64,000 bases of DNA from an uncultured Subdoligranulum sp. GTDB taxonomy: Bacteria; Bacillota; Clostridia; Oscillospirales; Ruminococcaceae. This document shows, one piece after another, positions 53,758-56,690 of this stretch. The stretch spans positions 1,480,481-1,544,480 of the forward strand of contig NZ_OZ007030.1 of the NCBI RefSeq assembly GCF_963931595.1, read 5' to 3'. The first letter of the stretch is position 1, and every line of letters begins with the position of its first letter. The notes beneath the pieces are model-generated. The model had not been told where the DNA came from and did no database searches. It saw nothing but the letters and a program-made list of their open reading frames with translations. A program made the translations under genes and the position numbers.

Positions 53758-54069
53758 ATGGAAAACAAACACAGACGGGGTGCTTCGGTGTATCTCTGGG
53801 CGCTGGGCGCGGCGGCGCTGGTGTGTCTTGTCATCAGCGTATGGTTTCTCTGGCGGGGCAGCGCCCGCAGGGCAGAACCCCTCTACCTTTTAAAGGACAA
53901 CGCCGGCCATCTGGCGCTGTACACCGGGGACGGCACCGGACCGCTGGCCCAGTACGACGAGATCTACACCCGGCTGCTGCCCGAGGCAGACGTACTGGCC
54001 CTGCAGCAGGGCGTGCCCGTCTACAGCGAGACCGAACTGGAAAAACGGCTGGAGGATTACGGTTTCTGA
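53758..54069 (+). CDS. Small membrane-anchored protein of unknown function
   Basis: The 103-aa protein has a short basic N-terminus, one membrane helix (VYLWALGAAALVCLVISVWF) and an extracytoplasmic part of about 65 residues. The latter reads LYLLKDNAGHLALYTGDG, then TRLLPEADVLALQQGVPV and ends ELEKRLEDYGF. Similar small clostridial proteins with an L-hhh-DY ending are known, and the domain faintly recalls the C-terminal part of BofC, but I cannot assign it. AAAAGGAGG precedes ATG 53758. It is divergent from the PBP gene, 219 nt away. Confidence 0.75.
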   Translation: MENKHRRGASVYLWALGAAALVCLVISVWFLWRGSARRAEPLYLLKDNAGHLALYTGDGTGPLAQYDEIYTRLLPEADVLALQQGVPVYSETELEKRLEDYGF

Positions 54070-54103: not shown

Positions 54104-54132
54104 TTGCGCCGCGCATGGATTTATGCTATAGT
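54104..54132 (+). promoter_or_regulatory. Promoter of the ACP cassette
   Basis: TTGCGC (54104-54109), 17 nt and TATAGT (54127-54132), about 35 nt before the ACP start. Confidence 0.68.
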
Positions 54133-54166: not shown

Positions 54167-54406
54167 ATGACCGAACAGGATATTTTGACTGCGGTGCAGG
54201 ATATTTTCCGTGACAACTTCGACGACGACACGCTGGTCATCACCCGCGATACCTGCGCCGACGACATCGAGGACTGGGACAGCCTGGAACAGATCAACCT
54301 GCTGACCGCCATCGAAAAGAAATTCAATATCAAGTTCAAGCTCTCGGATGTCCGCGGCCTCAAGGACGTGGGCGACCTGCTGGACCTGGTGGCCCGCATG
54401 GTCTGA
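54167..54406 (+). CDS. Acyl carrier protein (stand-alone)
   Basis: The 79-aa acidic protein has the phosphopantetheine site IEDWDSLEQINLL, with the Ser that receives the prosthetic group. The fold continues IEKKFNIKFKLSDV. It differs from a typical fatty-acid ACP (DSLDTVE) in the DSLEQI motif, which is usual for ACPs of special pathways such as polysaccharide or lipid modification. AAAGGAG precedes the ATG. It begins a four-gene unit with a MaoC hydratase, a reductase and an acyltransferase-like protein. Confidence 0.93.
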   Translation: MTEQDILTAVQDIFRDNFDDDTLVITRDTCADDIEDWDSLEQINLLTAIEKKFNIKFKLSDVRGLKDVGDLLDLVARMV

Positions 54407-54482
54407 TGAACCGGGAAGTGTAACACATCCTGTAAGGGGCGGCTCTGAGCCGCCTTTTTTCGAAGGAATAAAGGAGTCTGCG

Positions 54483-54899
54483 ATGAACCACTATACCCTG
54501 GCTGAGATGGTGCCCGGCCTGACCGAGGAATTCACCGTCACGGTCACCGCCGAGATGATGGAGGCCTTCCGGACCATTACCGGTGATGTCTCCCCCATCC
54601 ACATCGACGCCGACTACGCCAAGGACCGCGGCTATCCCGGCCGGGTGGTCTACGGCATGCTGGGTGCCAGCTTTTTCTCCACGCTGGCCGGCGTGTACCT
54701 GCCCGGCGAGCACTGCCTGCTCCACGGCGTGGAGTGCAAGTTTGCCAAGCCGGTCTTTATCGGCGACACCCTGACCGTGAAAGGCACCGTCCTGCGGGTC
54801 AGCGAGATCGGCAGCGAGGCCGAGATCAAGGCCGTCATCACCAACCAGAACGGCCAGCGCGTCACCCGGGGTATCATCAAAGCAGGCCTTGCCAAATAA
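54483..54899 (+). CDS. MaoC-like (R)-specific enoyl hydratase/dehydratase
   Basis: The 138-aa hot-dog protein has the hydratase-2 core TGDVSPIHIDADYAKDRGYPG, where Asp and His are catalytic, followed by RVVYGMLGASFFSTLAGVYLPG. It interconverts enoyl and (R)-3-hydroxyacyl thioesters on CoA or ACP. ATG 54483 has AAAGGAG 8 nt upstream. It lies 76 nt after the ACP gene and 14 nt before the reductase. Confidence 0.92.
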   Translation: MNHYTLAEMVPGLTEEFTVTVTAEMMEAFRTITGDVSPIHIDADYAKDRGYPGRVVYGMLGASFFSTLAGVYLPGEHCLLHGVECKFAKPVFIGDTLTVKGTVLRVSEIGSEAEIKAVITNQNGQRVTRGIIKAGLAK

Positions 54900-54913
54900 G
54901 GGAGGTTTCCGCT

Positions 54914-55654
54914 ATGTCGTATACGTATCTGATCACCGGCGCCACCAGCGATGTGGGCCGTGCCCTGATCGCCCGCCTGCTGAACGGCGCCCCCGACGCG
55001 CTGGTCCTTGCCCAGGGCTGCGGCGATCTGGACAAGCTGGCGTCCCTGTGCCAGCGTTTTCCGGGACAGGTCCGTCCCTTTGACGTGGATCTGTCCGACC
55101 GGGCCAAGGTAGACACCTTCATGCAGCTGCTGGAGACCTCTGCCCCCGCCCCCACCCACTTCATCCATCTGCCGGCGCTCCCCGTGATCAACACCAAGTT
55201 CAAGGCCTTCGACCAGACCCGCTTCGACAAGGACCTGGAAATTGAAGTGCACAGCGCCATCCGCATCTGCCGGGGCATTCTGCCCGCCATGGCCCGGGCC
55301 AAGTTCGGCCGGGTGCTCTTTATCCAGACCAGCTACACCATCGGCTGCCCGCCCAAAAACACCGCCGCCTACGTGATGGCCAAGAGCGCCATCGGCGGCC
55401 TGGTGAAGAGCCTGGCCGTGGAGTATGCCAAGTTCGGTGTCACGGTGAACTGCGTGGCCCCCAGCATGATGGAGACCCACTTCCTCAAGGACACTCCCGA
55501 CCTCATCGTGCAGGCAGCGGCGGCCGACAACCCCATGGGCCGCAACGCCACCCCAGAGGACGTAGTGCCCGCCATGGCGTTCCTGCTCTCCGACGAGGCG
55601 GGCTTCATTACCGGCGTGACGCTGCCGGTGACGGGAGGTTCGGCCATTGTCTGA
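54914..55654 (+). CDS. Short-chain dehydrogenase/reductase, FabG-like
   Basis: The 246-aa Rossmann protein has TYLITGATSDVGRALIARLL as cofactor loop, the active-site Ser in IQTSYTIG and YVMAKSA (YxxxK). The late NCVAPSMMETHFL and the closing SDEAGFITGVTLPVTGGSA are SDR segments. It resembles 3-oxoacyl-ACP reductases, but the first part (IHLPALPVINTKFKAFDQTR) replaces the usual NNAG motif and is atypical. GGAGG precedes ATG 54914. Its stop overlaps the next gene by 8 nt. Confidence 0.9.
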   Translation: MSYTYLITGATSDVGRALIARLLNGAPDALVLAQGCGDLDKLASLCQRFPGQVRPFDVDLSDRAKVDTFMQLLETSAPAPTHFIHLPALPVINTKFKAFDQTRFDKDLEIEVHSAIRICRGILPAMARAKFGRVLFIQTSYTIGCPPKNTAAYVMAKSAIGGLVKSLAVEYAKFGVTVNCVAPSMMETHFLKDTPDLIVQAAAADNPMGRNATPEDVVPAMAFLLSDEAGFITGVTLPVTGGSAIV

Positions 55655-56642
55655 CGTGACATTCCGTCTGGCCCGACTGGGCGAAGACCGGGCCATCATC
55701 GACTTCATCAATGAGCACTTTGACATGCGGCTGCCGCTGCTCAATCGCCCTGAACTCTACCACCACTACTATGCCGGGCGCGGCGGTGTGCCCCAGTTCG
55801 CCGTGGCCGAACAGGACGGCCGCTATGTGAGCGCCGCCGGATACATACTGGCCAACACGGCGCGCCGGCCCGATGTGTGGGTCAGCGTCTGGGTGGCCGC
55901 CAAGGGACACAACGGCGTGGGCCTGGAACTGATGAATGCGCTGCCCGGCCTTTTGCACGCCGACGTGCTGGCCTGCAACAACATCCGGCCCAACACCTGC
56001 ACCTTCTACCAGTTTCTGGGATGGCAGGCCGGACGCATCCCCCACTACTACCGGCTGGGACGGCGCTCCGATTACCAGCTGGCCAAGCCGCTGCGCTATA
56101 CCCTGCCCCCCGTGCAGCGGGACCTGGGGCTGGAGAAAATCGAGTCGGCCGCTGACCTGATCCCCCTGGGCATGCCCCCCACGCCCCATACACCCCGCAA
56201 GGACACCTGGTATCTGCGGCGGCGGTATTTCCACTATCCCCACTTTCACTACGATGTGTGGGCGGCCCGGGAGCACGGCAAGCTGCTGGCCTACGTTGTC
56301 ACCCGCACCGTCACCGCCCGGGAGACCGGCTGCGTGCCGGTGGTCCGGCTGGTGGACTACATCGGCGAGGACCGGGTCCTGCCGCGGCTGGGCGGCGCCC
56401 TGGACGCCATCCTGCACCGCACCGGCGCCGAGTATATGGACTGCTACAACGTGGGTATTCCGGCGGCGATCTGGCAGGCGGCGGGCTTCACTGAGCGGCT
56501 GGAGGGAGACGGCTGCATCATTCCCAACTACCTGACGCCCCCGCTGCGGGAGAACACCGAATATTACTATTTCACAAACAAGCCGGAAAACTTCGTGCTG
56601 TTCAAGGCAGACGGCGACCAGGACCGGCCCAACCTGAAATGA
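55647..56642 (+). CDS. GNAT-like acyltransferase of polysaccharide-cluster type
   Basis: The 331-aa protein has a GNAT-like N-terminal half (RLARLGEDRAIIDFINEHFD, then WVSVWVAAKGHNGVGLELMN as cofactor loop, and CTFYQFLGWQAGRIPHYYRL). A second half of similar length contains VVRLVDYIGEDRVLPRLGGA. Two-part proteins of this look occur in O-antigen and capsule gene clusters, where they acylate amino sugars. TTG 55647 was chosen because GGGAGG stands 8 nt upstream; GTG 55656 is the alternative. No glycosyltransferase is nearby. The acyl donor may be the ACP-bound product of the three genes before it; this is inference. Confidence 0.75.
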   Translation: MSDVTFRLARLGEDRAIIDFINEHFDMRLPLLNRPELYHHYYAGRGGVPQFAVAEQDGRYVSAAGYILANTARRPDVWVSVWVAAKGHNGVGLELMNALPGLLHADVLACNNIRPNTCTFYQFLGWQAGRIPHYYRLGRRSDYQLAKPLRYTLPPVQRDLGLEKIESAADLIPLGMPPTPHTPRKDTWYLRRRYFHYPHFHYDVWAAREHGKLLAYVVTRTVTARETGCVPVVRLVDYIGEDRVLPRLGGALDAILHRTGAEYMDCYNVGIPAAIWQAAGFTERLEGDGCIIPNYLTPPLRENTEYYYFTNKPENFVLFKADGDQDRPNLK

Positions 56643-56646
56643 CGAA

Positions 56647-56690
56647 CCCCCCCCCCCGCCCGGATGGAAATCTGGGCGGGGGTTTTGTTA
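56647..56690 (+). terminator. Terminator of the ACP cassette, preceded by a run of 11 C
   Basis: A 9-bp stem of G-C pairs (56653-56661 with 56674-56682) is followed by TTTTGTT. The 5' arm merges with a homopolymer of eleven C (56647-56657). Confidence 0.82.

Follow-up and report, generated by a model that had tools for sequence, protein, structure and literature searches.

This locus raises the question of what a compact block of four genes, encoding an acyl carrier protein (ACP), a MaoC hydratase, a FabG-like SDR reductase and a 331-aa protein, does in a gut bacterium, and in particular which acyl group it handles and what accepts it. Our preferred answer, to which we assign a probability of roughly two in three, is that a legionaminic-acid-type nonulosonic acid receives its non-acetyl N-acyl group from this block, with an ACP loaded by an FkbH-domain protein and a GNAT acting at the LegH step. 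Legionaminic acid is a sialic-acid relative made by bacteria.

A four-gene block that includes a predicted tandem GNAT

The window (the whole stretch of DNA analysed, 64,000 nt) comes from a single-contig genome of 2.99 Mb, whose nearest database matches are Gemmiger. All four reading frames were confirmed on the + strand, together with possible signals around them:

54104..54132, +: possible promoter (TTGCGC, 17 nt, extended -10 TGC-TATAGT), read by eye and below the scanner threshold
54167..54406, +: stand-alone acyl carrier protein, 79 aa, with a DWDSLEQ phosphopantetheine motif (PF00550, above cutoff)
54438..54460, +: terminator-like hairpin GGCGGCT-CTG-AGCCGCC-TTTTTT between ACP and MaoC, found in the sequence and not reported by the scanner
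54483..54899, +: MaoC/hotdog hydratase-dehydratase, 138 aa, with a GDVSPIH catalytic D/H motif (PF01575, E 1e-17)
54914..55654, +: FabG-like SDR reductase, 246 aa, with TGATSDVG and S...YVMAK motifs (PF13561, E 8e-35)
55647..56642, +: tandem-GNAT N-acyltransferase, 331 aa, putative LegH-step enzyme using acyl-ACP (from the model, Foldseek, VIA-align, and linkage to and co-occurrence with legionaminic acid genes)
56653..56686, +: intrinsic terminator 3' of the GNAT gene, with a 13-bp stem and a T-rich tail (terminator scan)

The gene for the 331-aa protein has a TTG start and shares 8 nt with the end of the SDR gene. A sequence-only reading of this DNA had described an ACP, a MaoC hydratase, a FabG-like SDR and a two-part acyltransferase with no ketosynthase nearby. 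Pfam and the structural model below bear out these assignments, and no ketosynthase (PF00109) match was found in the window; the only two in the genome lie outside it, and we rejected a type II fatty acid synthesis cluster as an identity for the block. The catalytic motif of the MaoC domain, G-D-x-S/N-P-I/L-H, was present in 62 of 62 homologues scanned. The SDR did not reach the curated cutoff of any NCBIfam model shown, among them that for the EF-P 5-aminopentanone reductase YmfI (NF047420, 123.8 bits against a required 238), an identity that we also rejected. A PADLOC search for a defence system gave no match.

The idea that one promoter and one terminator serve all four genes oversimplifies, given the hairpin between ACP and MaoC. 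At the possible promoter, 'ATGCTATAGT' or a near variant is retained 5' of ACP in the closest Gemmiger loci. A hairpin of differing sequence occupies this intergenic position in nearly all relatives examined (it is absent in L016), and it may be an attenuator that raises ACP expression over that of the enzymes.

The 331-aa protein matched nothing in Pfam, NCBIfam, PADLOC or PHROGs, some of its relatives matched Pfam GNAT weakly, and a PDB sequence search with its alignment gave a best E of 0.17, which is not meaningful. Its structure, which the sequence-only reading had proposed to model, was predicted for the protein alone by AlphaFold from a 24-member alignment (pLDDT 90.3). Foldseek matched this model to the tandem GNATs 7q3a (E 4.5e-10) and 2wpw, and VIA-align, a fold-level comparison covering the families listed there, gave Z scores up to 14 to N-myristoyltransferase (NMT) and GNAT/Eis-type acetyltransferase folds, with the glucosamine N-acetyltransferase 5kga among the structural neighbours (Z 12.4). 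The model thus lets us assign the protein confidently as a tandem GNAT with two GNAT domains. A PglD/NeuD-type acetyltransferase was considered and rejected, as the protein has no PglD_N or hexapeptide-repeat Pfam match and models as a tandem GNAT.

The block is conserved as a unit

Relatives of the block were collected as 58 loci from one scan of GTDB genomes. The neighbourhood survey of the 331-aa protein proposed by the sequence-only reading found that its homologues do co-occur with the other genes: the order ACP-MaoC-SDR-GNAT, with close spacing, is kept in 55 of the 58. Because the block is so ordered and so tightly spaced across these loci, its conservation as a four-gene set is far beyond chance. 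In the three exceptions, GNAT stands alone in the stretch examined (L043), GNAT lies about 2.6 kb from the rest (L045), or the locus starts inside the SDR (L047). Most loci from Fournierella, Anaerofilum and Ruthenibacterium also carry an FkbH-domain protein of about 596 aa directly 5' of ACP (TIGR01686, E 3e-89). When the survey was extended across the phylum, two of the 397 other genomes drawn matched the GNAT profile, both outside the host family. Divergent GNATs in two genomes outside the family (L091 and L092) have an AMP-ligase and an ACP nearby by Pfam, instead of FkbH. In L092, from genome G607 of another family, LegB/C/G/I/F-like genes and flagellin-region-like reading frames also lie close to the tandem GNAT, AMP-ligase and ACP.

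A penicillin-binding protein (PBP), homoserine dehydrogenase and a BofC-like gene remain close to the cassette in many loci; this part of the neighbourhood is thus conserved, but a functional tie to the cassette is not supported. In the window the BofC_C-like gene (53758-54069) encodes a small membrane protein just 5' of the cassette, with an E of 0.001, below cutoff. A wall or small-molecule role, suggested earlier from the PBP and HU neighbours, is likewise unsupported, because HU and CarB matches are limited to the five closest relatives (L001-L005) while the cassette tracks LegI across the family, as described next.

Association with legionaminic acid genes and the LegH step

Several relatives tie the cassette physically to the legionaminic acid (Leg) pathway. 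GNAT is the first gene in a GNAT-amidotransferase-LegB-LegC-PtmE-LegI-LegG-Gfo/Idh run in L043 and L045; the L043 homologues of LegB, LegC and NeuB score above NCBIfam cutoffs, and in L045 ACP-MaoC-SDR lies about 2.6 kb upstream of the run. GNAT adjoins a LegB...LegF set in L078. In L081 FkbH-ACP-SDR stands at the tail of the Leg set, after LegF and with the same orientation. The window genome itself encodes PtmE, LegB, LegC, LegG, LegI and LegF, the whole pathway gene set, at scattered positions, and its cassette adjoins no Leg gene:

C1:339231: LegB (88% to the L043 copy)
C1:1898542: amidotransferase (85% to the L043 copy)
C1 about 1.726-1.734 Mb: LegC-PtmE-LegI-LegG-Gfo/Idh-LegF cluster

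GNAT and LegI also co-occur. Among 248 family genomes surveyed at a completeness floor of 85%, with LegI orthologues called at 53% identity or above, GNAT was present in 41 and LegI in 43; 38 had both, 3 GNAT alone and 5 LegI alone (Fisher p 1e-35). Because shared ancestry inflates genome-level p-values, we also counted genera: 18 had both genes, 2 and 4 had one alone, and 83 had neither (p 1e-14). The co-occurrence is partly shared ancestry. The cassette therefore proves isolated, as the sequence-only reading had it, in map position in the window genome and not in function, given the Leg linkage in relatives and the co-occurrence with LegI, and that reading's suggestion that a surface-glycan amino sugar is acylated at its amine from a carrier-bound acyl group gains support at the pathway level.

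To see which acyltransferase accompanies LegI, we scanned the LegI loci of all 43 genomes that carry the gene, 38 together with GNAT and five without it. Three of the five GNAT-less genomes (G092, G107 and G164) carry a PglD/NeuD-type hexapeptide gene at this locus. The other two have a FemAB-like GNAT (G159) or FkbH-ACP-SDR (G143); no GNAT was found in G143, whose LegI locus carries this partial module, and this counts against our preferred answer. Where both genes occur, a PglD/NeuD-type gene was found in 1 of 38 genomes (G012; a weak match in G186 is a different left-handed-beta-helix acetyltransferase). The difference is significant (Fisher p 0.003), with absence weighing less where LegI sits outside a full cluster within the stretch scanned (G035, G011 and G013) or where contigs end early, as several do. 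It is mainly this pattern, a PglD/NeuD-type gene in most GNAT-less LegI clusters and in almost none of the rest, that suggests that the GNAT performs the N-acylation step. Filling of the LegH step by the GNAT is thus our best reading, predicted from its position in clusters and from the co-occurrence. Counting against it, a PglD_N-type hexapeptide transferase encoded just outside the window (L075:6707-7246, C1:1476706) could be the enzyme that acetylates the Leg precursor; near its gene lie MBOAT-like and glycosyltransferase-like reading frames.

FkbH and the probable acyl group

The module differs in composition between loci, from FkbH-ACP-GNAT (L079) and FkbH-ACP-SDR (L081) to the FkbH-ACP-MaoC-SDR-GNAT of most loci, and FkbH-ACP is retained where MaoC and SDR are missing (L079 and L151). 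Because FkbH and ACP are thus its constant pair, we favour a glycerate-derived acyl group, probably glyceryl, or lactyl if MaoC and SDR act on it; the (R)-3-hydroxyacyl group of the sequence-only reading is not supported, and the FkbH upstream in relatives points instead to a three-carbon acyl derived from glycerate.

The window genome lacks the cassette FkbH, and its remaining FkbH, at C1:947276, is 0.6 Mb away and belongs to a different clade; both points count against our preferred answer. The pairing of FkbH with an adjacent stand-alone ACP is seen in relatives. Each of the five Gemmiger genomes surveyed gave a single FkbH match, with about 50% identity to the cassette type. In a 31-row tree the Gemmiger FkbHs fell into an MBOAT-linked clade, separate from that of the cassette FkbHs (both 100/100); L149, with an adjoining MBOAT gene, groups with the cassette-type FkbHs as an exception to this split. 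At about 947 kb on C1 (L062:9277-13593), FkbH, DltD-like and MBOAT genes stand in a row without an ACP. DltD-like and MBOAT genes likewise lie 3' of FkbH, with no ACP seen alongside, in three of the four further Gemmiger loci read; the FkbH of L139, also Gemmiger, has no MBOAT gene. Elsewhere in the family an ACP lies directly beside FkbH; a nearby MBOAT gene with the same orientation accompanies the pair in L084, L142, L143, L144 and L146, but not in L145 or L147 within the stretch examined. Because the absences are reciprocal, the cassette lacking an FkbH and the FkbH lacking an ACP, and because the window ACP is the sole one of FkbH-partner type among the ACPs read in the genome, we assume that the distant FkbH loads it.

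A proposed pathway and its alternatives

In the pathway we propose, FkbH would charge the ACP with a three-carbon glycolytic acid (glyceryl, from 1,3-bisphosphoglycerate), which MaoC and the SDR may then tailor, with dehydration of glyceryl-ACP to hydroxyacryloyl- or pyruvyl-ACP and reduction to lactyl-ACP, a route that we put forward on chemical grounds. LegC makes GDP-4-amino-4,6-dideoxy-GlcNAc, and the tandem GNAT would acylate the 4-amino group of this sugar at the step where a PglD/NeuD-type enzyme would otherwise carry out LegH acetylation; LegG, LegI and LegF would then yield the CMP-activated sugar for a surface glycan. We infer direct use of the ACP by the GNAT, the N-4 acceptor and each step of the acyl chemistry; the acyl donor could instead be an acyl-CoA. 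A more detailed proposal, which we advance only tentatively and regard as doubtful as a whole, is that gut Oscillospiraceae make N-lactyl or N-glyceryl legionaminic acid from glycolysis through an ACP-dependent tandem GNAT that replaces LegH, and that in Gemmiger the ACP is loaded by the FkbH of a separate MBOAT O-acylation locus, which that FkbH may also serve.

The pairing of MaoC with a FabG-like reductase is a classic route to 3-hydroxyacyl thioesters, and the same pathway position might be served by (R)-3-hydroxybutanoyl made by the SDR and MaoC from acetoacetyl-ACP or crotonyl-ACP. Legionaminic and pseudaminic acids with a 7-N-(R)-3-hydroxybutanoyl group (Leg5Ac7R and Pse5Ac7R) are indeed tabulated for Acinetobacter capsules (PMC9676051, PMC6586298). 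However, the gene that travels with the cassette is FkbH, not a ketosynthase, and the persistence of FkbH-ACP without MaoC and SDR (L079, L151) also argues against this acyl group, which we consider unlikely. It is similarly improbable, in our estimate, that the GNAT is an ordinary LegH that transfers plain acetyl from acetyl-CoA, the usual GNAT substrate, while ACP-MaoC-SDR serve a separate acylation. L043 speaks for such a division, as its GNAT sits inside a Leg cluster and ACP, MaoC and SDR were not found within the 17 kb examined, but the ordered block of nearly all other loci, in which SDR and GNAT overlap or almost do, and the ACP next to even the divergent GNATs speak against it.

The cassette might also acylate a different amino sugar, or a small molecule of an unrelated kind, with its LegI co-occurrence due to shared ancestry. 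G080 has FkbH-ACP-GNAT and no NeuB homologue was found there, so another acceptor is possible in that genome, and the lack of a Leg gene beside the cassette in the window genome points the same way. Set against this are the physical Leg linkage in L043, L045, L078, L081 and L092 and the association between GNAT and LegI at the genus level, and we judge it quite improbable for the cassette in general. Provision of a non-acetyl N-acyl group at the LegH step would give a concrete function to a conserved block that includes a protein without Pfam or NCBIfam domain annotation. It would predict an unusual surface sugar in the gut bacteria Gemmiger and Fournierella, which could affect how host lectins or phages recognise them, and it suggests that a carrier-protein module standing in for LegH can set the N-acyl group of nonulosonic acids.

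Comparison with known systems

The legionaminic acid pathway of Campylobacter jejuni, PtmE-LegB-LegC-LegH-LegG-LegI-LegF (tabulated in PMC3438082), resembles the system described here in that its genes are present in the window genome and adjacent in relatives, with a GNAT where an N-acyltransferase is needed. The C. jejuni LegH (Cj1298) stands alone, whereas the transferase here, likened to it by pathway position, has a tandem-GNAT fold and is linked with ACP, MaoC, SDR and, in relatives, FkbH. Variation of the 7-N-acyl group through a swapped acyltransferase gene with its hydrolase partner is shared with the Acinetobacter lgaABCHIFG and psaABCGHF clusters, unlike which the cassette carries genes for acyl supply (ACP, MaoC, SDR and, in relatives, FkbH) alongside that for the transferase, and probably provides a different acyl group.

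FkbH/ACP glyceryl-ACP modules of polyketide clusters, such as mad7/mad8 and mad14/mad12 (PMC7489565), likewise pair an FkbH-domain protein with a stand-alone ACP, as relatives of the cassette do; there the companions are FabH-like or O-methyltransferase genes, here MaoC, SDR and GNAT in a glycan-precursor setting. Within the family, the FkbH-ACP-MBOAT loci (L084, L142-L144, L146) share FkbH and ACP with the cassette but have an MBOAT gene close by in the same direction in place of GNAT, and their FkbHs form a separate clade. As for the product, the 4-(D-glyceroyl)amino-2,4,6-trideoxyglucose of the Pragia fontium O-antigen, as cited in PMC10609480, is an N-acylated 4-amino sugar of the type predicted here if glyceryl is transferred; it belongs to a Gram-negative O-antigen, and the likeness is drawn between the sugars.
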